Positions 14,001-28,869 of a stretch of 64,000 nucleotides of DNA are shown here, in pieces (within the stretch, counting starts at the first letter, position 1; every line of letters begins with the position of its first letter). The stretch is taken from NCBI RefSeq assembly GCF_034555965.1, contig NZ_JAYDCK010000003.1, positions 1,550,001-1,614,000 of the forward strand. The letters run 5' to 3'. The position numbers and the translations under genes were made by a program. Source of the stretch: Aquicoccus sp. G2-2 (GTDB lineage: Bacteria; Pseudomonadota; Alphaproteobacteria; Rhodobacterales; Rhodobacteraceae). The notes under the pieces were generated by a model. That model saw nothing but the letters and a program-made list of their open reading frames with translations, made no database searches and was not told where the DNA came from.

Positions 14001-15356
14001 ATGAACATCGAAACCAAAACCTCAAGGCTGGTGCAAGCCCCGTCTATTCCCGGCCCACACGAAGGTTATATGCCCGGCTTTGGCAATGATTTTGAAACCG
14101 AAGCCCTGCCCGGTGCCCTACCGCAAGGGATGAACAGCCCGCAGAAATGCAATTACGGCCTATATGGCGAACAGCTTTCCGGCACCGCCTTCACCGCGCA
14201 TCCGCCCGAGCGCACATGGACCTATCGCATCCGCCCGTCGGTCAAACATTCGCACCGCTATACGAAAATCGACCTGCCCTATTGGAAATCAGCCCCCCAT
14301 GTCGTTGATGATGTGACGTCACTTGGCCAATACCGCTGGGACCCGCTGCCCCATTCCGATGAAAGCCTGACCTGGCTGACCGGAATGCGCACGATGACGA
14401 CCGCCGGGGATGTCAACACGCAGGTCGGCATGGCAAGCCATATCTACCTCGTCACCGACTCGATGGTCGATCAGTATTTCTATTCCGCCGACAGCGAACT
14501 GCTGGTCGTGCCACAGGAAGGCCGCCTGCGATTCGCCACCGAGCTGGGCATCATTGATCTTGAGCCCAAGGAAATCGCCATCATCCCGCGCGGTCTGGTC
14601 TACCGTGTCGAAGTGCTCGAAGGCCCGGCGCGCGGATTCGTCTGCGAAAACTACGGCCAGAAATTCGAGATGCCCGGCCGCGGCCCAATCGGCGCCAACG
14701 CGCTCGCCAACCCGCGCGATTTCAAGGCCCCCGTCGCCGCATACGAGGACCGTGAAGTTGCCTCGACGCTGACAATCAAATGGTGCGGCCAGTTCCACGA
14801 GACGAAGATCGCCCAGTCACCGCTCGATGTGGTCGCTTGGCACGGCAATTACGCGCCCTATAAATACGACCTGCACGCCTATTGCCCGGTCGGGGCCATT
14901 CTGTTCGATCACCCCGATCCGTCGATTTTCACTGTGCTTTCCGCACCCTCCGGCGTGCCGGGCACCGCCAATATTGATTTCGTGCTGTTCCGTGATCGTT
15001 GGATGGTGGCCGAAAACACCTTCCGCCCGCCGTGGTATCACAAGAACATCATGTCCGAATTGATGGGCAACATTCATGGCCAGTATGACGCCAAGCCGCA
15101 AGGCTTCGTCCCCGGCGGGATGAGCCTGCACAACATGATGCTGCCGCACGGGCCGGACAAAACCGCGTTCGAAGGCGCATCAAACTCAAACCTCGGCCCG
15201 GAGAAGCTTGAAAATACCATGTCCTTCATGTTCGAGACCCGTTTCCCGCAGCACCTCACCCGCTTTGCCGGGCGCGAAGCGCCGTTGCAGGATGATTACA
15301 TCGACTGTTGGAGCGACATCGAGAAGAAATTCGACGGCACCCCCGGCAAGAAATGA
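14001..15356 (+). CDS. hmgA: homogentisate 1,2-dioxygenase
   Basis: 451-residue iron(II) dioxygenase that cleaves the homogentisate ring to maleylacetoacetate in tyrosine/phenylalanine and hydroxyphenylacetate breakdown. Seen: [18 protein letters not shown] at the N-terminus (family signature) and the iron ligands His347, Glu353 (in [16 protein letters not shown]) and His383 (in LPHGPD), which align with His335, Glu341 and His371 of the human enzyme at a constant offset of 12. Full length. AGGAG lies ten bases before the ATG. It is the first gene of the hmgA-fahA operon and is divergent from marR. Confidence 0.97.
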
Positions 15357-15437
15357 CGTGCGGGCGGGGCATCCCCGTCCTACACACCCCACGAAGGGCG
15401 GGGAGTTTCCCGCCATCCTGTGAATGAAAGACAAGCC

Positions 15438-16694
15438 ATGACATTGCAAAAATCCTGGGTAGCTTCGGCCAATTCCGCCAAGCACCCCTTCCCGCTCAAT
15501 AACCTACCCTACGGGGTGTTCTCGACCGAAGCACTCGACCCGCGCTGCGGCGTGGCGATCGGTGACATGATCTTCGATTGCCAGCGTGCCGAGGAAGCCG
15601 GCCTGATTTCGCTCACCGATGACGCGCTTTTCGACGTGCCCTTCTGGAATGAAGTGATGGAAGAAGGCCCCGAGCTTTGGGCCGCCCTGCGCGCCCGGCT
15701 TGGCCAAATTCTTGCCGACGGGTCGCCGGATAAAGCGCGCGCCGAACCGTTTCTCGTGCCGCAAAGTGAAGCCGAAATGCATCTGCCGTTTCTGGTTTCC
15801 GAATATACCGATTTCTATGCCTCCAAAAACCACGCCTCCAATGTCGGCACCATGTTTCGCGGCCCGGAAAACGCGCTGCCGCCGAACTGGCTGCACATGC
15901 CAATCGGCTATAACGGGCGCGCCTCCTCGGTGGTGGTCTCGGGCACCGATATCCGCCGCCCTTGGGGTCAGTTGAAATCCCCCGATCACGACATGCCTGC
16001 CTTCCTGCCGTGCCGCCGGTTCGATCTTGAACTGGAAATGGGTGCCATTGTCGGCCAACCTGCCGATGGCCCGGTCAGCGTGGACGAGGCGGACGCGATG
16101 ATTTTCGGCTATGTGCTGCTCAACGATTGGTCGGCGCGCGATATCCAGGCTTGGGAATATGTCCCGCTCGGGCCGTTTCAGGCCAAGGCCACCGCCACCT
16201 CGATCAGCCCGTGGATCGTCACCACCGCAGCACTTCAGCCGTTTCGCTGCGCCACGCCCGAACGCGAGGTCGAATTGCTGCCACATCTGCGCGACACCGG
16301 CCCGATGCTTTATGACATCGACCTGAGCATTACACTGGCCCCCGAGGGCAAGGCGGCATCCGAAATCTCGCGCACCAACTATAGCGAGATGTATTACTCC
16401 TCTGCTCAGCAGCTTGCCCACCACACCACCTCGGGCTGTCCGATGAATCCGGGCGACCTTCTCGGCTCGGGCACCATTTCGGGCAAGGAAAAGAACCAGC
16501 GCGGCGCGCTTCTGGAACTAAGCTGGGGCGGCAAGGAGCCACTTACCCTCGACACCGGAGAGACCCGCACTTTTCTGGAGGATGGCGACACGCTCACCCT
16601 CTCGGGCGCCGCTCACGGTGATGACTTCACCATCGGTTTCGGAACATGCACCGGCACCATCCTGCCTGCCCTGAAAGACCCCTACGCCCGCTAA
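15438..16694 (+). CDS. fahA: fumarylacetoacetase
   Basis: 418-residue hydrolase that splits fumarylacetoacetate into fumarate and acetoacetate, the last step of homogentisate degradation. Seen: the DFYASKNHASNVGTMFR segment (catalytic His region), RPWGQLKSPDH, the metal ligands in DLELEMGAIVG, NDWSARDIQAWEY and the GDLLGSGTISG loop. ATG 15438 is used; a GTG 18 bases earlier would add MNERQA. It follows hmgA by 81 bases; the spacer has two short GC hairpins but no clear terminator. No maleylacetoacetate isomerase gene is found in the window, so the isomerisation step must be encoded elsewhere. Confidence 0.96.
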   Translation: MTLQKSWVASANSAKHPFPLNNLPYGVFSTEALDPRCGVAIGDMIFDCQRAEEAGLISLTDDALFDVPFWNEVMEEGPELWAALRARLGQILADGSPDKARAEPFLVPQSEAEMHLPFLVSEYTDFYASKNHASNVGTMFRGPENALPPNWLHMPIGYNGRASSVVVSGTDIRRPWGQLKSPDHDMPAFLPCRRFDLELEMGAIVGQPADGPVSVDEADAMIFGYVLLNDWSARDIQAWEYVPLGPFQAKATATSISPWIVTTAALQPFRCATPEREVELLPHLRDTGPMLYDIDLSITLAPEGKAASEISRTNYSEMYYSSAQQLAHHTTSGCPMNPGDLLGSGTISGKEKNQRGALLELSWGGKEPLTLDTGETRTFLEDGDTLTLSGAAHGDDFTIGFGTCTGTILPALKDPYAR

Positions 16695-16705
16695 GCGCCC
16701 TCGCG

Positions 16706-16732
16706 ATGAAGCGGTGCACCCCACCGCTTCAT
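16706..16732 (+). terminator. terminator hairpin after fahA
   Basis: ATGAAGCGGTG and CACCGCTTCAT pair perfectly over 11 bp with the five-base loop CACCC, and the right arm runs into TTTTGCC. It begins 11 bases after the fahA stop. The right arm is also the start of dispersed repeat copy B. Confidence 0.7.
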
Positions 16733-16756
16733 TTTGCCCCAAATATCCCCGCCGGA
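16727..16756 (+). repeat. dispersed intergenic repeat, copy B
   Basis: CTTCATTTTGCC, a short A-rich stretch, ATATCCCC, then GCCGGAGGC. It overlaps the 3' arm of the fahA terminator and lies between fahA and the MBL-fold gene. Confidence 0.75.
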
Positions 16757-16800
16757 GGCTCCCACATGTGCCAAAGGCAACCAATACAAAGGAACACGAC

Positions 16801-17751
16801 ATGGCCAAGAAATTTGCCTCACAAGGCGACATGACCGAAAAGGAAATCTCGTTCACCGAAGTGGGCGATGGCCTCTGGGCCTTCACCGCGCAGGGCGATC
16901 CCAACTCCGGCGTCATCATCGGCGATGACAGCGTGATGATCGTCGAAGCGCAGGCCACCCCAAGGCTGGCCAACCAGGTGATCGAAAAGGTCCGCGAAGT
17001 CACCGACAAGCCGATCTCGCATCTGGTGCTGACCCATTACCACGCCGTGCGGGTGCTCGGTGCGTCGGCTTATGGTGCGTCGCAAGTGATCATGTCCGAC
17101 GCCGCCCGCGCACAGGTGGTTGAACGCGGACAAGAGGACTGGGACAGCGAATTCCAACGCTTCCCACGTTTGTTTGAAGGCCACGAATCAATTCCCGGCC
17201 TGACCTTCCCGACCACCACCTTTTCCGACGCGATGACCGTCTATCTTGGCAACCGCCGGGTTGATATCATGCATGTCGGTCGCGCCCATACGGCGGGCGA
17301 CGCGGTGATCCATGTGCCCGACCAGAACGTGATGTTCACCGGCGATATCGTCGAATACCACTCCGCCTGCTATTGCGGCGATGGCCATTTCTCCGATTGG
17401 GGCGATACGCTCGACAATATCAAATGGTTCGATGTCGATGCCATCGCGCCGGGCCGGGGCGATGCGCTTATCGGTCACGAGATGGTCAACGCGGCGATTG
17501 AAAACACCCGCGATTTCGTGGCCTCCACCTACCGCCCCGCCGCCCGCGTCGCCGCCAGCGGCGGCTCGCTCAAAGATGCATGGGACGCGGTGCGCGCCGA
17601 ATGTGATCCGAAATTCTCCGACTATGCGATTTATGAGCATTGCCTGCCGTTCAACGTCGCACGCGCCTATGACGAAGCGCGGGGCATCGACACACCGCGC
17701 ATCTGGACCGCCCAGCGCGACATCGAAATGTGGGAGGCCCTGCAAGGCTGA
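16801..17751 (+). CDS. MBL-fold protein with incomplete metal motif
   Basis: 316-residue metallo-beta-lactamase-fold protein. The hallmark HxHxDH is only half kept: LTHYHAVRVLG has the two histidines but valine and arginine where Asp and His should follow. The later ligands are present: His in GRAHTAGDAV, Asp in FTGDIVEY and the C-terminal GRGDALIGHE. So a one-metal site, or a non-hydrolytic role, is likely. Preferred start ATG 16801 after AAAGGAACACGAC. Its position between fahA and a flavin hydroxylase suggests hydrolysis of a thioester or lactone in the homogentisate pathway; the substrate is unknown. Confidence 0.85.
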   Translation: MAKKFASQGDMTEKEISFTEVGDGLWAFTAQGDPNSGVIIGDDSVMIVEAQATPRLANQVIEKVREVTDKPISHLVLTHYHAVRVLGASAYGASQVIMSDAARAQVVERGQEDWDSEFQRFPRLFEGHESIPGLTFPTTTFSDAMTVYLGNRRVDIMHVGRAHTAGDAVIHVPDQNVMFTGDIVEYHSACYCGDGHFSDWGDTLDNIKWFDVDAIAPGRGDALIGHEMVNAAIENTRDFVASTYRPAARVAASGGSLKDAWDAVRAECDPKFSDYAIYEHCLPFNVARAYDEARGIDTPRIWTAQRDIEMWEALQG

Positions 17752-17858
17752 GCGCCCGGCGCAATGATACGCCCGGCGTGACACAGATCAACGCCAAGAC
17801 GGCGCAGGCATGAGAGACTGACCACATGCCTGCGCCCACGCCCCCGGAGGAAACCGCC

Positions 17859-19472
17859 ATGACCAAGATTTTCGAAACCCCGCTTTACCCCTATGAACAC
17901 TCCCCCGATCAGGATGCGGCCAGCCCGGTGCGCCATCCGGTCGTGGTGGTGGGCGCAGGCCCGGTCGGGCTTTGTGCGGCGGTTGAGCTGGCGCAGAACG
18001 GCACGCCGGTGGTGGTGCTCGACGATAACGAAAAGGTCTCTTTCGGGTCGCGCGCCATCTGTTTCGCCAAACGGCCACTGGAAATCCTCGACCGTGTGGG
18101 TGCGGGCAAACGGATGCTTGATCTGGGCGTCGAATGGGAGGTCGGCAAAGTCTTTTTCGACGAACGGCAGGTATACGAGTTCAACCTTTTGCCGGAAAAG
18201 GGCCATCAATACCCCGCCTTCATCAACCTTCAGCAATACCATTTCGAAGCCCAGATGATCGCCCGCGCCCGCGAATTGCAGGCCGAAGGCGCGCCGATCG
18301 AAATTCGCGGCCGCAACAAGGTCGAAGCCATCGGCGCGCATGACGATCACGTGGCGCTCGAAATTGAAACGCCCGAAGGCTCCTACACGCTCGAAGCCGA
18401 TTGGCTGATCGCTTGTGATGGCGCCAATTCACCCAGCCGCCGGATGCTGGGCCTCGACTTCGTCGGGCGCGTATTCGAAGACAACTTCCTTATCGCCGAC
18501 GTGGTGATGGACGCCAAGTTCCCGACCGAACGCTGGTTCTGGTTCGACCCGCCCTTCAACCGCGGCCAATCGGCGCTTTTGCACAAGCAGCCCGATGGCG
18601 TCTGGCGGATTGATTTTCAGCTCGGTTGGGACATCGACCGCGAGAAAGAACTCGATCCCGCCAATATCGACAAACGCCTGCGCGCCATGCTGGGCAAGGA
18701 TGTGAATTACACGCTGGAATGGTCGTCTATCTACACCTTCCAATGTCGGCGGATGGAAGATTTCCGCCATGGCCGGGTGCTGTTCGCGGGCGATGCGGCG
18801 CATCAGGTCTCTCCGTTCGGGGCACGCGGGGCCAATTCCGGGGTACAGGATACCGACAACCTGATCTGGAAACTGCAACTGGTGATTGCCGGGCGCGCGC
18901 CCGAAAGCCTGCTCGACAGCTATAATTCCGAACGACTTCGAGGCGCGGACGAGAATATTACCAATTCCACCCGCTCGACCGATTTCATCACCCCGAAATC
19001 CGAAATGTCGCGGCTCCTGCGCGATGCGGTGCTTGATCTCTCGGAGCATTACGAATTCGCCCGCCCATTGGTCAATTCCGGGCGCCTCTCGGTGCCGTGC
19101 GTCTATGACGGCTCACCGCTGAACTCCGCCGATGCGCTGCCCGCCGGGCCGGCCCGCACCCGCCCCGGCGCGCCCTGCCCCGATGCGCCGCTCGGTGATG
19201 GCTTCCTGCTGCCCAAGCTCGGCGGCCATTTCACCCTGCTCACCATCGACGCCGACGCGCCGGATCAATTCGAAGAAAGCGGTCTGAAGGTCGAGCGGCT
19301 GGCGCTGTCGTCAAAAGACGACAAGACCCAAGCCTTGAAACAGCGGTATCTCGGAGACGCCAAATCAGCCGTTTACCTTATCCGCCCCGATCAACATGTC
19401 GCCGTCCGCCGGGACACATGGAACGAAGACCTTTTCCGCGCCGCCCTGCGCCGTGCGACAGGCAAGGAGTGA
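17859..19472 (+). CDS. FAD-dependent aromatic monooxygenase, MhaA-like (3-hydroxyphenylacetate 6-hydroxylase candidate)
   Basis: 537-residue class A flavoprotein hydroxylase. The three FAD/NAD(P)H motifs are plain: GAGPVG near residue 33 of the start strand VVVVGAGPVGLC, the DG motif IACDGANSPSRR, and the GD motif VLFAGDAAHQVSPFGARG. A thioredoxin-like C-terminal tail follows. In a homogentisate operon, and followed at once by a 67-residue protein, it matches the layout of MhaA/MhaB, the two-component hydroxylase that makes homogentisate from 3-hydroxyphenylacetate in Pseudomonas putida. Start at ATG 17859 after GGAGGAAACCGCC; an in-frame ATG at 17826 has no comparable ribosome site. The exact substrate is inference. 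Confidence 0.85.
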   Translation: MTKIFETPLYPYEHSPDQDAASPVRHPVVVVGAGPVGLCAAVELAQNGTPVVVLDDNEKVSFGSRAICFAKRPLEILDRVGAGKRMLDLGVEWEVGKVFFDERQVYEFNLLPEKGHQYPAFINLQQYHFEAQMIARARELQAEGAPIEIRGRNKVEAIGAHDDHVALEIETPEGSYTLEADWLIACDGANSPSRRMLGLDFVGRVFEDNFLIADVVMDAKFPTERWFWFDPPFNRGQSALLHKQPDGVWRIDFQLGWDIDREKELDPANIDKRLRAMLGKDVNYTLEWSSIYTFQCRRMEDFRHGRVLFAGDAAHQVSPFGARGANSGVQDTDNLIWKLQLVIAGRAPESLLDSYNSERLRGADENITNSTRSTDFITPKSEMSRLLRDAVLDLSEHYEFARPLVNSGRLSVPCVYDGSPLNSADALPAGPARTRPGAPCPDAPLGDGFLLPKLGGHFTLLTIDADAPDQFEESGLKVERLALSSKDDKTQALKQRYLGDAKSAVYLIRPDQHVAVRRDTWNEDLFRAALRRATGKE

Positions 19473-22200: not shown

Positions 22201-23616
22201 ATGCGCTGGAGCGATTTCCCGAAATGGGGCAAATGGGCCGCCGACTGGGCGGCTGATTATCACGCAACCCTGCGCGACCGCCCGGTGCGCGCCCAAACCA
22301 AACCGGGCGAAATCGCCGCACAACTCCCCGCCTCTGCGCCCGAAGCACCGCACCCGATCGAAGACATCCTCGCCGATTTCGAACGCATCGTTGTGCCCGG
22401 CCTCACCCATTGGCAGCACCCGCGCTTCTTTGCCTATTTTCCGTCCAACGCCTCCCCCGCCGCAGTGCTGGCCGATAACCTGATCGCCGCCACCGCCACG
22501 CAATGTATGCTCTGGCAGACCTCGCCTGCTGCGACCGAGATGGAAACCCGGATGATGGATTGGCTGCGGCAGGCGCTTGGCCTGCCCGGAGACTTTCACG
22601 GCGTCATTCAGGACAGCGCGTCGTCGGCCACGCTCGCCGCCGTGCTGACCATGCGTGAACGCGCGCTCGACTGGCAGGGCAATGCCGCCGGTCTGCCGGG
22701 CCAAAAACAGATCCGCGTTTATGCGTCCGAGGAAGTTCACACCTCGATTGACCGCGCCATCTGGGTCGCCGGTATCGGAGAGGCCAACCTGATCCGCATT
22801 CCCACCCACGGCCCGCTGCGCGCGATGCAACCCGACGCCCTGCGCGCCGCGATCAAGGCCGACCTCGCCGCCGGGCACCTGCCTGCCGGTGTGATTGCCT
22901 GCACCGGCGGCACCGGCACCGGCGCGTGCGATGATATCGCCGCCTGCTGCGCCATCGCCGCCGAATACGGGCTTTATTCGCATGTCGATGCCGCTTGGGC
23001 AGGCTCCGCCATGATCGCCCCCGAATTTCGCAGCCTTTGGGCGGGGGTCGAGCAGGCCGACAGCGTTGTGCTCAACCCGCATAAATGGCTCGGCACGCAG
23101 TTCGACCTTTCGGCGCATTTCATCCGCGCCCCCGAAGACCTGACTCGCACGCTGGCAATTCAGCCGGAATATCTCAAGACCCACGGTGCCGACGGGATCA
23201 TCAATTATTCCGAATGGTCGGTGCCGCTTGGCCGCCGGTTTCGCGCGCTGAAGCTGTGGTTCTTGCTGCGCGCTTACGGGCTTGAGGCGCTGCGCGGGAT
23301 GATCCGCAACCATGTGACATGGGCGCAGGCACTCGCCGAACGCCTGCGCGCGCACCCCGATTTCGAGATCGTGACAGAGCCGGTCCTGTCACTTTTCACC
23401 TTCCGTTTCGCCCCCACTGGCGCGCAAGACTTTGATGCGCTCAACTTGGCGCTGATCAACGCCATCAACGACGATGGCCGTATCTACCTCACCCAGACCC
23501 GTACAGGTGGCGCGCTGGTGATCCGCTTTCAGGCGGGCCAGTTTGATGCCACCGAGGACGACATAAGCACCGCTTATGACGTCATCACCGAAATCGCCAC
23601 ACAAATTCAGGAGTAA
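22201..23616 (+). CDS. PLP-dependent aromatic-L-amino-acid decarboxylase family protein
   Basis: 471-residue group II decarboxylase (DDC/tyrosine-tryptophan decarboxylase family) that turns an aromatic amino acid into its amine. Seen: the family N-terminus with LTHWQHPRFFAYFPSNAS near residues 65-82, the TGGTGTGACDDI loop, the HVDAAWAGSAM segment (Asp that holds the PLP nitrogen) and the PLP lysine Lys295 in NPHKWLGTQFD. Full length. A TGGAGAC ribosome site precedes the ATG and the palindrome lies just upstream. The next gene, an HpcH-type aldolase, starts five bases after its stop. The preferred amino acid cannot be read from the sequence. Confidence 0.9.
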   Translation: MRWSDFPKWGKWAADWAADYHATLRDRPVRAQTKPGEIAAQLPASAPEAPHPIEDILADFERIVVPGLTHWQHPRFFAYFPSNASPAAVLADNLIAATATQCMLWQTSPAATEMETRMMDWLRQALGLPGDFHGVIQDSASSATLAAVLTMRERALDWQGNAAGLPGQKQIRVYASEEVHTSIDRAIWVAGIGEANLIRIPTHGPLRAMQPDALRAAIKADLAAGHLPAGVIACTGGTGTGACDDIAACCAIAAEYGLYSHVDAAWAGSAMIAPEFRSLWAGVEQADSVVLNPHKWLGTQFDLSAHFIRAPEDLTRTLAIQPEYLKTHGADGIINYSEWSVPLGRRFRALKLWFLLRAYGLEALRGMIRNHVTWAQALAERLRAHPDFEIVTEPVLSLFTFRFAPTGAQDFDALNLALINAINDDGRIYLTQTRTGGALVIRFQAGQFDATEDDISTAYDVITEIATQIQE

Positions 23617-23620
23617 GCCC

Positions 23621-24400
23621 ATGCCCGCCCCCATCAACCGTTTCAAGGCCGCGCTCAAAGCCGGTGAGATCCAAATCGGCTGCTGGGCCGGGTTTGCCAA
23701 TGCCTATGCCACCGAAGTGCTGGCCACCGCCGATTTCGACTGGCTGGTGATCGACGGCGAACACGCCCCCAACGATCTGCAAACCATCATGCAACAATTG
23801 CAGGTGCTCGAAGGGCGCCATTCCACCCCGGTCGTCCGCCTGCCAATTGGCAATGAATGGCTGATCAAACAGGCGCTCGATGCGGGGGCGCAAACCGTTC
23901 TGGTGCCAATGGTAGAAACCGGCGAACAGGCGGCACATCTCGCCCGCGCGATGCTCTATCCACCGCAAGGCATTCGCGGTTCCGGCGCGGCACTCGCACG
24001 TGCCTCGCAATTTTCGCTGATCCCGGATTACGTGCAAACCGCCAACGCGCAAACCTGTCTTCTGGTGCAGGTCGAAACCGCCAAGGGCATGAAGAACCTC
24101 GATGAAATCCTCGCCGTGCCCGGCGTCGACGGGGCGTTCATCGGCCCCGCCGATCTCGCTGCCGATATGGGCCATCCGGGTGAATCAAATCACGCTGACG
24201 TGCAAGCCGCCATCAAGGACGGCCTTGCCCGGATCAAAGCCGCTGGCAAAGCGCCGGGCATCCTCGCCACCGACGACACCACGGCGCAGCGCTATCACGG
24301 CTGGGGCGCGCAGTTCCTTGCCGTGGGGATCGACGTGGTGATGCTGGCCAAAACCGCCCGCGCCACAATGGGCGACTGGACCAAGCGACTGGGGCGCTAA
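23621..24400 (+). CDS. HpcH/HpaI-family class II aldolase
   Basis: 259-residue metal-dependent aldolase of the HpcH/HpaI family, which makes or splits 4-hydroxy-2-oxo acids (for example 4-hydroxy-2-oxoheptanedioate, giving pyruvate and succinate semialdehyde). Seen: DFDWLVIDGEHAPND with the catalytic His/Asp, the RLPIGNEWLIKQALDAGAQT loop, GVDGAFIGPADLAADMG with the metal-binding Asp, and the Glu in LLVQVETAKGM. ATG 23621 follows an AGGAG site. It is tightly coupled to the decarboxylase gene (five-base gap). The acceptor aldehyde is unknown; in aromatic catabolism this step often closes a meta-cleavage pathway. Confidence 0.92.
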   Translation: MPAPINRFKAALKAGEIQIGCWAGFANAYATEVLATADFDWLVIDGEHAPNDLQTIMQQLQVLEGRHSTPVVRLPIGNEWLIKQALDAGAQTVLVPMVETGEQAAHLARAMLYPPQGIRGSGAALARASQFSLIPDYVQTANAQTCLLVQVETAKGMKNLDEILAVPGVDGAFIGPADLAADMGHPGESNHADVQAAIKDGLARIKAAGKAPGILATDDTTAQRYHGWGAQFLAVGIDVVMLAKTARATMGDWTKRLGR

Positions 24401-24511: not shown

Positions 24512-25162
24512 ATGGCAGGGCAAACGGATATCATTGTTGAAGCGGTCCTTTCAGGGATCGAAAGCGGCGCACTGGCCCCCGGTGACGTGATCGAGGAACA
24601 AACCCTCATCGCCGCACATGGCGTGTCGCGCACCCCGGTGCGCGAAGCAATGATCCAACTCGAAACCGCCGGGCTGATCATCCGCAACCCCCGCAAAGGC
24701 GCGACCGTGTTCCGCCCCACGCTGGAACAGTTCCTTGCTATTCTCGAAGTTCACGCCAAGCTCGAAGGCCAAGCCGCGGGGCTTGCCGCGCGGCGGCTCT
24801 CGAAAACCCACGCCACAGCACTCGAAGCGGCGGTGCAGGCCTGCGAACGCCACGCTGCCGAACAAGGCGATGCCGCACCCGATGCCTATTACCAGCTCAA
24901 CCTTGATTTTCACCGGGTCGTCGCCGAAGCGGCGGGCAATCCGTTCCTGCTTGAAATGATCAAGACCAACGCGCGCAAGCTGATGGCCTATTACCGTGCG
25001 CGCTATCATTATGCCGGGGTGATCGCCACCTCGGCGCGTGACCACCGCGCGATTGCCACGCTGATCAATGCGCGCGATTCAAGCGCCGCCGAAGCCTTGA
25101 TGGAACAGCATGTGAGTTTCGATCACGTCACCGCGCTTGACCTGCTTGCCGCCCTTGGTTGA
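24512..25162 (+). CDS. GntR-family regulator with FCD domain
   Basis: 216-residue transcription factor. The N-terminal winged-helix GntR domain is at about residues 5-70 (recognition region VSRTPVREAMIQLETAGLI); the C-terminal helical FCD/FadR-type ligand domain runs from about 75 to 210, with the metal/ligand residues in YYQLNLDFHRVVAEAAGN and a downstream His in SARDHRAI. It lies after the decarboxylase-aldolase pair on the same strand, 111 bases downstream, and just before the divergent GATase/P450 pair, so it probably controls one or both units. Candidate sites are the palindrome at 22171 and the AT-rich P450 upstream region. Confidence 0.9.
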   Translation: MAGQTDIIVEAVLSGIESGALAPGDVIEEQTLIAAHGVSRTPVREAMIQLETAGLIIRNPRKGATVFRPTLEQFLAILEVHAKLEGQAAGLAARRLSKTHATALEAAVQACERHAAEQGDAAPDAYYQLNLDFHRVVAEAAGNPFLLEMIKTNARKLMAYYRARYHYAGVIATSARDHRAIATLINARDSSAAEALMEQHVSFDHVTALDLLAALG

Positions 25163-25176
25163 ACTGCTCCTAAAGA

Positions 25177-25878
25177 TTAACTTCGAACGTCATGAGCATG
25201 CTTTGCCTCGATAAACTCTGCAACCGCCTCGGCCCAAGCCGCAATATCCGGCGCATCGGTCAGTGAGGCGCGCGCCTGCGCAGAAATCTCCGGGCCAAGC
25301 TCTCCTTCCAACTCATCAATCAGCGCCGCAACAAACTCCGGCGCCATTTCCGGGTGATACTGCGTGGTCAGCACATGATCCCCGATCACGAACCCTGCCA
25401 CCGCGCAGCCCGGCCCCTCAGCCACCACCTCCGCCCCTTCGGGAAGCCGCGTCACCTGCTCCGAATGGCTGGCATAGACCTGCCATTTGCGCCCGTCCCT
25501 CAGCGTCGCCTCGACTTGGCCAAACACCCAACCGCCGGGGTTTCTCTCCACCTTGCCGCCCAGCGCCTTCGCCACCACCTGATGCCCAAAACACGCCCCG
25601 AACACCGGCACCTCGGCGGCCACCAACTCGCGGATCAACCTTTCGAGCCGCGCCACCCATTCAGCCCCGGAATTGACCGACGCCGGTGAGCCGGTAATCA
25701 ATACCCCGTCTATTCCATCAAGGCTCAAGGGAAAGTCACCGTCTTTCACCGAATAAACGACAAACTCCCAATCCGGGCGAACCTGCCGAATCATCTCGGG
25801 AAATTTCTCGCCATCTTTCGGCCAGGCTTGCGCAAATTCGCTCTCGTCTGTGTTGGTCACCAGCACGGCAATACGCAT
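25177..25878 (-). CDS. class I glutamine amidotransferase-like hydrolase
   Basis: 233-residue class I GATase. The triad is present: Cys96 in FGACFGHQ, and His175 and Glu177 in YHPEM. Lone class I GATases of this type hydrolyse gamma-glutamyl amides (compare TdnT/AtdA2 in aniline oxidation and PuuD in putrescine use) or act as GMP-synthase-like amidases. It is divergent from the P450 gene with an 83-base AT-rich gap and opposite the GntR gene end. Together with the GS-like ligase at 27245 it would complete a gamma-glutamylation and deglutamylation pair. Substrate unknown; the pairing is an inference from position. Confidence 0.88.
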   Translation of the reverse strand: MRIAVLVTNTDESEFAQAWPKDGEKFPEMIRQVRPDWEFVVYSVKDGDFPLSLDGIDGVLITGSPASVNSGAEWVARLERLIRELVAAEVPVFGACFGHQVVAKALGGKVERNPGGWVFGQVEATLRDGRKWQVYASHSEQVTRLPEGAEVVAEGPGCAVAGFVIGDHVLTTQYHPEMAPEFVAALIDELEGELGPEISAQARASLTDAPDIAAWAEAVAEFIEAKHAHDVRS

Positions 25879-25961
25879 CGCTCAGAATCCTTTTGCATAC
25901 TTAGGCCATTTTACAATATACTTAACATTACAACAACCCGATTCCTTTTGCGGAGGCGCTG

Positions 25962-27221
25962 ATGACTATCTGGACACCCACCGATGATGGGCACGCCGAT
26001 CTCTCGTCGCACGATACCTTCGCCAAAGGCGCGCCGCACAACACATTTGCCCGCCTGCGCCGCGAAGACCCGGTGCATTGGACCGCCTACCCGCAAGGGC
26101 AGGATTTCTGGTCAATCACCCGCAGCAACGACATCGCCGCGATGAACCGCAACACGGCCGTTTTCTCCTCCGCGCGCGGCATCCGCATGGAAGATCAATC
26201 CTATGAGGAATACCTCGCCCGCGCCACGTTTCAGGAAACCGACCCGCCCGAACATATGCAGACCCGCATCAAGCTCGCCAAGGCGTTCTCCAAGCAGGTC
26301 ATCGCCCAGTTTGAGAGCGAAATTCGCAGCATTTGCAACGGCATCTTCGATCAAGCGCTGGAGCAGGACAGCTTTGACGCGACCCATGCGCTTGCCCGCC
26401 CACTGCCGATGCGAATGCTCGGCCGTATCCTCGGCGTGCCCGATGAAGACCTGCCATGGCTGGTGGAAAAGGGCGATGCGCTGATCGCCAATACCGACCC
26501 GGATTTCACCGATCATGTGCTCGACCAGATGACGACGGACGAATATCGCATGATGCCGTTCAACTCCCCCGCCGGGGCCGAATTATTCGTCTATGCCAAA
26601 AGCCTGATGGCCCGCAAAGAGGCCGCCGGCGACACCTCCGGCGTGCTGTCACTGGTGTGTCAGCCGTCCAAGGACGGCTCCACCATGACAGAGCAGGAGT
26701 TTCGCAATGTTTTCTGTCTCTTGGTCGCCGCGGGCAATGACACCACCCGCTATTCCATCGCCGCAGGCATTCAGGCGCTGTGCCATCAACCGGAATTGCT
26801 GGCGCAGATGCAGGCTGGCGGCGCACTGTGGGACACTGCATCGGATGAAATCATCCGCTGGGCCACGCCCGCGCTTTATTTCCGCCGCACCGCGACGCAG
26901 GATTTCGACATCCACGGCAAAACCATCCGCGAGGGCGACAAAGTGCTGTTCTGGTGGGCCTCGGCCAACCGCGACGAAGAGGTGTTTGATGAGCCGTTCC
27001 GCGTCAATCTGCTGCGCACACCCAACCGCCACATGAGCTTCGGGCAAGGCGGCCCGCATGTCTGTCTCGGCATGTGGCTGGCGCGGCTCGAAGTGCGGGT
27101 GTTTTTCGAAGAACTGGTCAAACGGCTCAAATCCATAGAAGCTGATGGAGACCATGAATTTCTCCGCTCCAACTTCGTGGGCGGGCTGAAGAAACTACCC
27201 GTGCGCATCAAACGCGCATGA
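25962..27221 (+). CDS. cytochrome P450
   Basis: 419-residue bacterial class I P450 that hydroxylates or oxidises a small organic substrate with electrons from a ferredoxin. Seen in order: the I-helix AAGNDTTRYS with the acid-alcohol pair and the Thr that guides oxygen, the K-helix EIIRW (ExxR), and the haem loop FGQGGPHVCLGMWLAR with the haem thiolate Cys368. The A'-to-E region contains FQETDPPEHMQTRIKLAKAF. No signal peptide, soluble. GGAG lies seven bases upstream of the ATG. The GS-like gene starts 24 bases after its stop and a [2Fe-2S] ferredoxin follows, probably its electron donor; no ferredoxin reductase gene is in the window. Confidence 0.96.
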   Translation: MTIWTPTDDGHADLSSHDTFAKGAPHNTFARLRREDPVHWTAYPQGQDFWSITRSNDIAAMNRNTAVFSSARGIRMEDQSYEEYLARATFQETDPPEHMQTRIKLAKAFSKQVIAQFESEIRSICNGIFDQALEQDSFDATHALARPLPMRMLGRILGVPDEDLPWLVEKGDALIANTDPDFTDHVLDQMTTDEYRMMPFNSPAGAELFVYAKSLMARKEAAGDTSGVLSLVCQPSKDGSTMTEQEFRNVFCLLVAAGNDTTRYSIAAGIQALCHQPELLAQMQAGGALWDTASDEIIRWATPALYFRRTATQDFDIHGKTIREGDKVLFWWASANRDEEVFDEPFRVNLLRTPNRHMSFGQGGPHVCLGMWLARLEVRVFFEELVKRLKSIEADGDHEFLRSNFVGGLKKLPVRIKRA

Positions 27222-27244
27222 AGACCGACAACAGGGAGCCATAA

Positions 27245-28533
27245 ATGCAAGACCGTCTGCGCGCGATATTCTGCGATCATCTTTCAATCATTCGCGGAAA
27301 ATACCTCCCCCCTCAAAAATCGCCGATGGAGAGACCCGCTTTTGCCGCTCCACCTTCGGTGTGCATTACGACCGTGACCTGCTCGACGCACCCGGCGCGA
27401 TGATGATGCAGGGCCTGCCCGATATGGAGCTGCGTTGGAAACACGACGAGATTCGCGAAAGCTGGGACGCGGGCACGAAAATTGTCATCGGTGATCTTTA
27501 TGACGATGCGGGCGCGCCGCTGCCGCTCTGTCCGCGCGGCGCACTGAAACGTGCCGTCGCCGATTGGGGCAAGCACGGGCTATCGCCCAAAATCGGGATC
27601 GAGCTGGAATGCTTCGCGCTGCAACCCGATGATCAAGGCCGCATCGTGCCCTATGATGCGCCCGGCGGCGTGGTTTACGGCACCGGCCCGTTCACCGATC
27701 CGCTGCGCTTCAACGATGCGATCTGGGAAATGGCCGACCGGCTCGGCTTTCGCCTCGACATGATCACAGCCGAATTCGACAGCCCGCAATATGAATACAC
27801 CCTGACCTTCGATGATGCCGTCCAAGCAGTTGATGACATTGTTCTTTTCCGCCTCATGGCCCGCGAAATCGCGCTTGAGCACGGAATTATCCTGTCGTTC
27901 ATGCCCAAACCCATTGCCGAGGCAGGCGGCTCTGGCATGCACATCAATTTCTCCTTCGCCTATAGTGCCGGCGGCAACGCGCTCTCCTCTGGCGAAAAGG
28001 GTGGGCCAGAGCATATGAATGCGCTGGCAAAAGGCTGCCTTGCCGGGTTGATGCAGCACCACAAGGGGCTGGCCGGGCTGATCGCACCGACCGCCAATTC
28101 CTATCAACGGCTTCAACCCGGCTCGCTCTCCGGCTTTTGGAAGAACTGGGGCGGCGATCATCGCAATGTCACCACCCGAATTTCCTCCGAAGGCGGCCCA
28201 AAGGCGCGGCTCGAACATCGCATGGCCGATGCCTCCTCTAACCCCTACACCGCCGTTGCCGCCGTACTGCAAGCCGCGCGCCTCGGGGTCGAAAACGGCT
28301 ATGACCTCCCGGCGATGGAAACCGGCGACGGGTTTGACAAAACCGATGCAAAGGAAAGCACCGCCGCCACGCTGAAAGAGGCCACCGCCGATCTCAGGGC
28401 CGATACCGCGCTCACCGAAGCAGTCGGGCAGCTTCTATGCGACAATCATATCTTCATGAAAGAAAAAGAAGTGAAGAAAACCAAAGACCTGGAAGGCGAT
28501 GCTCTGCGCGATTTCTATGTCTATTTCGTCTAA
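27245..28533 (+). pseudogene. glutamine-synthetase-like gamma-glutamyl amide ligase (frameshift at a C6 run, probably a sequencing indel)
   Basis: GS-family ligase, about 429 residues when joined, that would use ATP to couple the gamma-carboxyl of glutamate to an amine (PuuA/IpuC/TdnQ-type). The N-terminus MQDRLRAIFCDHLSIIRGKY begins at ATG 27245 after GGGAG. It is in a different frame from the rest: at the run of six Cs (27307-27312) one base seems lost. With seven Cs the text reads YLPPSKIADGETRFCRSTF in one frame. Downstream all GS active-site parts are intact: GIELECF, the ITAEFDSPQYEYT acids, GSGMHIN, and RLEHRMADASSNPY. Second gene of the P450 operon; the ferredoxin follows. Confidence 0.85.
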
Positions 28534-28554
28534 CCCCAAAATTCGAGGCAAAAC

Positions 28555-28869
28555 ATGAAGGTCACATGGCAACTCCCTGATGGAAAAGAAATTTCCGCTG
28601 ATGTCGAAAACGGTATGAACATGATGCAGGCGGCGCTGGCCCATAATGTTCCCGGCATTATCGGTGAATGCGGCGGCACGCTTTCATGTGCCACCTGCCA
28701 TGTCTACGTGGCAGATGCATGGACCGAAAAAACCGGCGGCACGGATGATTTCGAAGATGCCATGCTCGACGTCGCCGAAGCGGAGCGCCGCGATACCTCG
28801 CGCCTGTCATGTCAGATCGAAGCCAGCGATGCGCTCGACGGCCTCGTTCTCATCGTTCCCGAAGCCTGA
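28555..28869 (+). CDS. [2Fe-2S] ferredoxin, adrenodoxin/putidaredoxin type
   Basis: 104-residue vertebrate-type ferredoxin that feeds electrons to P450s. The four cluster cysteines are seen: Cys39, Cys45 and Cys48 in the GECGGTLSCATCHVYV loop and Cys86 near RLSCQI. The acidic helix DDFEDAMLDVAEAERRD before the last cysteine matches the partner-binding helix of putidaredoxin. It lies 21 bases after the GS-like gene and its start is preceded by a weak ribosome site. Together with the P450 two genes upstream it forms a likely class I electron chain lacking only the reductase. Confidence 0.95.
   Translation: MKVTWQLPDGKEISADVENGMNMMQAALAHNVPGIIGECGGTLSCATCHVYVADAWTEKTGGTDDFEDAMLDVAEAERRDTSRLSCQIEASDALDGLVLIVPEA

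Follow-up and report, generated by a model that had tools for sequence, protein, structure and literature searches.

A conserved cytochrome P450, glutamine synthetase-like ligase and amidotransferase gene set of Aquicoccus sp. G2-2, predicted to act on gamma-glutamylated aromatic amines

Described gamma-glutamylamide pathways and the Aquicoccus gene set

The closest described counterpart of the genes analyzed here is the Ipu pathway of Paenarthrobacter aurescens TC1, in which, as described (ISME J 2019, PMC6776027), a gamma-glutamylamide synthetase handles isopropylamine together with a multicomponent P450 and a glutamine amidotransferase (GATase); the P450 oxidizes the gamma-glutamyl amide and the amidotransferase then frees the product. 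We examined a set of similar genes in the 3.8-Mb genome of Aquicoccus sp. G2-2, located within a stretch of 64,000 nucleotides (contig C3, positions 1550001-1614000; referred to below as the window). A GATase gene on the minus strand is divergent from plus-strand genes encoding a cytochrome P450, a glutamine synthetase-like (GS-like) protein and a [2Fe-2S] ferredoxin. With middling confidence, we propose that this set would attach glutamate to tyramine, hydroxylate the ring of the conjugate and then set dopamine free, which would enter the homoprotocatechuate pathway. Its components, in window coordinates, are:

25177..25878 (-), GATase of class I, predicted to hydrolyze gamma-glutamyl amides
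25879..25961, divergent intergenic region of 83 bp, with AT-rich elements kept in relatives
25962..27221 (+), cytochrome P450 of 419 aa, predicted monooxygenase acting on a glutamylated amine (PF00067, 72 bits)
27245..28533 (+), predicted GS-like amine ligase (PF00120, 241 bits; residues and tree)
28555..28869 (+), [2Fe-2S] ferredoxin of 104 aa, predicted P450 electron donor (PF00111, 37 bits)

The original prediction for this DNA had proposed that a ligase, an oxygenase and an amidase work together on a glutamylated amine, which our analysis supports. It had also regarded a P450 combined with such a ligase/amidase pair as undescribed, a view that the Ipu report does not support. The set is real, conserved and informative, and it is a variant among gamma-glutamylamide pathways. 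Like the window, the TC1 cluster brings together a GS-like synthetase, a P450 with ferredoxin and a GATase. In contrast to the window set, its substrate is aliphatic, its P450 is 28% identical, its GATase is not clearly related, its ligase belongs to another clade, and neither an aromatic decarboxylase nor hpa genes are present in the 11.4 kb of it that were examined.

In the aniline and 1-naphthylamine systems (AtdA1/TdnQ ligase, NpaA1), the aromatic amine is glutamylated before ring oxygenation and a GAT-like hydrolase is present (PMC11335346). These systems differ from the window set in using a Rieske dioxygenase instead of a P450; the aryl amine nitrogen is lost with ring oxidation, and the GAT hydrolyses the substrate conjugate. 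A Pfam scan of nine genes of the window (17.8-30.3 kb) revealed the P450 and no Rieske domain. No P450 reductase gene was found among the neighbors listed in the same region, which include the P450, ferredoxin, ligase and GATase; a reductase gene does follow the set in two other loci (L220 and L222).

The Puu putrescine pathway (PuuA-PuuE) resembles our proposal in its sequence of ligase, oxidation, PuuC-like aldehyde dehydrogenase, aminotransferase and amidase. It differs in its flavin oxidase (PuuB), in the placement of PuuA in another clade, and in PuuD, which has only a short stretch in common with the GATase (E 3e-5). A GS-like gene presumably also lies near mycobacterial CYP151 (morpholine, piperidine), although a literature search did not confirm this. 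In the open-access literature (titles and abstract openings, with subscription journals mostly outside), we found no description of a P450/ligase/amidase route for tyramine or of its link with homoprotocatechuate. It is this combination for tyramine that the search did not bring up; the glutamylamide logic itself is already published, with a P450 for isopropylamine and with Rieske dioxygenases for aniline and naphthylamine.

Catalytic residues of the set and the interrupted ligase frame

The GS-like protein was aligned within a set of 23 proteins, which included E. coli GlnA and PuuA, IpuC of P. aurescens TC1, and five further GS homologs of the same genome as the window. The original prediction had credited it with all GS active-site parts. 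This holds for the metal, phosphate and glutamate residues, which the subfamily retains (E129, E131, E212, E220, H269, R321, R339, R344, R359 and E357), but not for the ammonium site, whose residues D50, S53, Y179 and E327 (E. coli numbering) are substituted by C, G, V and L, respectively. The replacement was found in 10/10 aligned clade members, wherever the residue was aligned (the main ORF of the window lacks the D50 column); the most divergent member has A and M, once each, at these positions. The ammonium-site residues are likewise lost in E. coli PuuA and in IpuC. Against the GlnA family TIGR00653 (NCBIfam) the protein scores 161 bits, far below the cut-off of 429. In a maximum-likelihood tree, from which AtdA1, TdnQ and NpaA1 were left out, the subfamily forms its own 10-row clade (support 100/100) outside GlnA, PuuA and IpuC, so that the grouping with ordinary GlnA named beforehand as fatal to the pathway idea was not observed. 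Since the ammonium site is lost and the clade stands apart from GlnA, it follows that the enzyme is probably an organic-amine ligase and not a glutamine synthetase; the residues and the tree do not say which amine.

The original prediction overlooked a break in the GS-like frame. The earliest ATG/GTG/TTG of the main frame (27361-28533, 390 aa) is at 27361, 139 bases past the P450 stop codon, while a GS-type N-terminus of about 20 codons starts in another frame at ATG 27245, 23 bases past that stop. The gaps of about 20 bases described earlier are therefore correct from ATG 27245 and incorrect for the main frame. In a genome search, the main frame matched just residues 19-429 of a 429-aa relative, and relatives of the protein are nearly all 429-430 aa long (best 120 of 2137 matches; the other protein comparisons used the best 120 of 7075 and of 5382). 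Split frames also occur elsewhere in the genome, in a second GS homolog (G000:C3:811556-812544), in HpaH (L158:8087-8877) and in an aminotransferase (L242:7418-8733). As other genes of this genome are also split, assembly indels are the likelier cause; since the proposed pathway includes three of the four split genes, the break may instead reflect genuine decay in the strain.

The gene coordinates, the P450 heme ligand Cys368 and the GATase triad Cys96-His175-Glu177 of the original prediction were all confirmed. The P450 further contains AGNDTT at position 257 and EIIR at 296, and the ferredoxin has the cysteine pattern Cys39-X5-Cys45-X2-Cys48 plus Cys86. The GATase triad is invariant across 21 aligned relatives. 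By fold comparison, the nearest solved fold is that of a gamma-glutamyl hydrolase, and the enzyme resembles gamma-glutamyl peptidase, to which it is nearer than to glutaminase subunits. The 83-bp divergent region contains variants of two AT-rich elements, CATATTTA and GTATATTA, found in 46 and 35, respectively, of 75 such regions (the window and 74 relatives); they constitute a candidate GntR operator.

Conservation of the set and its aromatic gene context

Among 244 sampled genomes of the order, the P450 (E <= 1e-100) and the GS-like protein (E <= 1e-90) matched the identical 39 genomes, a co-occurrence beyond chance. In a class-wide sample, the P450 (E <= 1e-70) was present in 8 of 337 genomes, seven of them from four other families. 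A scan with an intact GS-like relative yielded 95 loci, the best 80 of which were named. They belong mostly to Rhodobacteraceae and Roseobacteraceae (Ruegeria, Phaeobacter, Leisingera, Tritonibacter, Shimia, Lentibacter and Aquicoccus), with a few Rhizobiales metagenome-assembled genomes. The neighborhood is thus conserved in relatives, the second point on which the pathway idea had been staked. The P450 and GS-like genes are present in 80/80 loci, the GATase in 75/80, a GntR regulator in 60/80 and the ferredoxin in 45/80. Four of the five loci lacking the GATase are short contigs (3-6 kb), and one (L115) is truly without it in 21 kb. Other frequent neighbors are an aminotransferase (46/80), IclR (45/80), TctA (48/80) and UPF0261 (39/80).

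Three further genes of the window lie just before the GATase in coordinate order:

22201..23616 (+), aromatic L-amino acid decarboxylase, predicted amine supplier (PF00282, 314 bits)
23576..24400 (+), predicted HpaI-like 4-hydroxy-2-oxoheptanedioate aldolase (TIGR02311, 342.5 bits, below the cut-off of 368.8)
24512..25162 (+), GntR/FCD regulator, candidate for the set (PF00392, PF07729; adjoins the set in 60/80 loci)

Among solved proteins, the decarboxylase is closest to DOPA decarboxylase (E 2e-114) and to tyrosine decarboxylase. Its link with the set, previously suggested from adjacency, is borne out by its presence in 38/39 P450 genomes versus 74/205 others (Fisher 6e-14; these tests take genomes as independent) and, in a distant family, directly before the P450-GS-ferredoxin genes. 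The homoprotocatechuate link had escaped the original prediction. HpaD occurs in 35/39 P450 genomes versus 35/205 others (Fisher 1.7e-18), counting the 70 genomes over the family cut-off and dropping G025, G026 and G088, which fall below it. By genus, a genome with HpaD is present in 26/26 P450 genera versus 14/75 others.

Physical linkage was observed in several arrangements. In L096, L110 and L112, hpaF-E-D-DDC-G-...-I precedes the GATase/P450/GS set, and in L075 hpaF-E-LigB-D-G-H-I-GntR does so; in loci of these types HpaE, HpaD, HpaH and LigB-type HpaD pass their cut-offs. The hpa genes, GntR, GATase, P450 and GS occur together in L188 and L190, hpa genes adjoin the set in L115, and L191 has tctC-tctA-P450-GS-GATase-IclR-aminotransferase-hpaFEDGHI on a single strand. 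The order in L223 is aminotransferase-DDC-tct-GATase-P450-GS. L220 and L222 contain MarR-ALDH-LigB-FAA hydrolase-ADC-DDC-P450-GS-ferredoxin-reductase, with DDC directly 5' of the P450; their aldehyde dehydrogenase (ALDH) and LigB proteins score best against HpaE and HpaD_Fe, both below the cut-offs. The nearest named P450s of the L220-L222 group are those of Dongia and Hypericibacter (Dongiaceae; best 120 of 5382 matches). The class III aminotransferase found near the set is closest to omega-transaminase. In further loci (L041, L057, L061 and others), the paaABCDE phenylacetate epoxidase genes lie upstream of GntR, PaaA being present in 16/80.

In the window genome, hpaFEDGH is located at C3:1763k (L158), where HpaD (407.7 bits, cut-off 321.4) and HpaE (789.4 bits, cut-off 638.35) exceed their cut-offs. 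No HpaI match was found in this 19-kb hpa stretch; the HpaI-like aldolase of the window is predicted to perform the last step of homoprotocatechuate degradation. A further region at C3:2145k (L242) carries APH, aminotransferases, aldehyde dehydrogenase, TctA, TctC and IclR. No PF11794 match (HpaB) at E <= 1e-10 was detected in this genome (G000), and the predicted entry into its Hpa (4-hydroxyphenylacetate/homoprotocatechuate) pathway is tyramine via the P450. A comparison of hpa regions in 20 P450-negative and 20 P450-positive genomes revealed no replacement hydroxylase that stood out; a decarboxylase was present in 4 and 10 of these regions, respectively.

Proposed tyramine route and competing explanations

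In the proposed route, (i) the decarboxylase, judged by its class, would convert L-tyrosine into tyramine, (ii) the GS-like ligase, which has lost the ammonium site, would catalyze ATP-dependent gamma-glutamylation of tyramine, (iii) the P450 with the ferredoxin would perform 3-hydroxylation to gamma-glutamyldopamine, (iv) the GATase, in keeping with its fold match, would hydrolyze this product to dopamine and glutamate, (v) the linked class III aminotransferase and an aldehyde dehydrogenase would convert dopamine into 3,4-dihydroxyphenylacetate, and (vi) HpaD, E, F, G, H and I would carry out ring cleavage to central metabolites by the established pathway. The glutamyl cap may prevent both transamination before ring hydroxylation and cyclization of the amine onto the quinone. 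Gene content, residues, folds, co-occurrence and linkage are what was observed; all substrates and the site of oxidation are our inference. The reaction itself has a precedent in mammalian CYP2D6/CYP2D4, which convert tyramine to dopamine by 3-hydroxylation (PMC8097730); there it concerns a free amine, a membrane P450 and a biosynthetic side route. More tentatively, dopamine might be a catabolic intermediate in roseobacters and other alphaproteobacteria, a soluble P450 acting only on the gamma-glutamyl conjugate of tyramine replacing the flavin hydroxylase HpaBC along the path tyrosine, tyramine, dopamine, homoprotocatechuate.

Several observations weigh against the tyramine proposal. Among 62 well-covered loci, 53 have a decarboxylase, hpa or paa marker or an aminotransferase/TctC module; in 31, however, the retrieved flanks contain neither a decarboxylase nor hpa or paa markers, and nine lack even the aminotransferase or TctC. 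Sixteen of the 80 loci adjoin phenylacetate genes (PaaA) and not hpa, and HpaD together with the decarboxylase occurs without the P450 in 29 genomes. HpaD is absent from four of the 39 P450 genomes: three that belong to genus g12, and G160, where a LigB-type gene is present. The GATase is missing near the set in the Dongiaceae-type loci (L220-L222) and in L115, the ferredoxin was found in just 45/80 loci, and the TctABC transporters, frequent neighbors, usually carry carboxylates and not amines. HpaB is present in 2/39 P450 genomes versus 11/205 others (Fisher p = 1); since it is rare everywhere (13/244), its absence alone is no pointer to the P450, and the question whether it is missing where the P450 is present proved uninformative.

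Some of these points would suit the same machinery acting on another aromatic ethylamine, a rather unlikely explanation in our view: 2-phenylethylamine, 3-methoxytyramine (with the P450 as O-demethylase), octopamine, or dopamine undergoing another P450 oxidation. The phenylacetate genes adjoining 16/80 sets fit it, the 29 genomes with hpa genes and decarboxylase but no P450 suggest DOPA or dopamine use without this enzyme, and aromatic decarboxylases are often promiscuous. However, in G103 and G128, both P450 genomes from genus g56, HpaD adjoins a decarboxylase elsewhere in the genome, and for this reason the phenylacetate neighbors need not be the outlet.

It is improbable that the set performs Ipu-like aliphatic amine oxidation, in which the amine would be gamma-glutamylated and its alkyl chain hydroxylated by the P450, the aromatic genes being chance neighbors. 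The published Ipu pathway has the same logic and gene types in one cluster, and the nearby TctABC, UPF0261 and AT3b/APH genes give no aromatic pointer; against this stand the 28% P450 identity to TC1, barely similar GATases (E 0.002), ligases in separate clades, and the association with the decarboxylase and HpaD both within the order and in other families. Oxidative N-dealkylation, in which the P450 would hydroxylate the carbon beside the amide nitrogen to give an aryl acetaldehyde and glutamine, with the GATase as a glutaminase, is very improbable. It would account for both hpa and paa outlets with no transaminase, yet it leaves the aminotransferase linked in 46/80 loci idle, does not account for catechol hydroxylation ahead of HpaD, and conflicts with the peptidase-like GATase. 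Ordinary nitrogen assimilation by a GlnA paralog beside an unrelated P450 was already disfavored and is hardly credible, given the replaced ammonium site, the low GlnA score and the perfect P450 co-occurrence, despite the PF00120 domain, the intact metal and phosphate residues, and a fold model (pLDDT 77.6) whose best matches are ordinary glutamine synthetases, a comparison that does not separate ligase types and was set aside as a test.

If the tyramine proposal is true, homoprotocatechuate degradation would have a third entry in addition to HpaBC and ready-made catechols, and tyrosine or tyramine use by HpaB-less marine bacteria would be accounted for. Catecholamine synthesis could then draw on a natural P450 that is soluble and works with a removable amino-acid handle, and a function would be assigned to a GS-like clade whose members carry the annotation glutamine synthetase in model organisms, e.g. 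Ruegeria pomeroyi (L041).

Other genes recur around the set. UPF0261 (unknown function; e.g. L115:15168-16406) is found with TctABC and a PuuC-like aldehyde dehydrogenase, and this group occurs near the set and also near hpa clusters without it. The DDC/P450/GS run of L220 and L222 includes an acetoacetate-decarboxylase-family gene (PF06314; L220:11560-12357, L222:6441-7235), whose best NCBIfam match, below the cut-off, is MppR. A sulfatase (PF00884), located between paa or other genes and GntR, was matched in 13/80 loci (L050, L057, L068 and others) and might desulfate a phenol or an amine. Farther upstream in the window (14001-19472) are genes for homogentisate 1,2-dioxygenase (PF20510/PF04209) and an FAD monooxygenase (NF006002), a possible 3-hydroxyphenylacetate hydroxylase, after which relatives carry a small DUF2783 gene. 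A second, distant set was identified in a single genome (L227, G463:C10:69000-88000). It comprises GntR, a GS-like protein (28%), an FNR/Fer2 reductase, a P450 (35-37%) and a GATase (30%), together with an AptA-type aminotransferase over the cut-off, a PuuC-like aldehyde dehydrogenase and then a transporter. Its composition suggests that the P450/ligase/amidase design may serve other amines, and that glutamyl-guarded P450 oxidation may be a general amine strategy.

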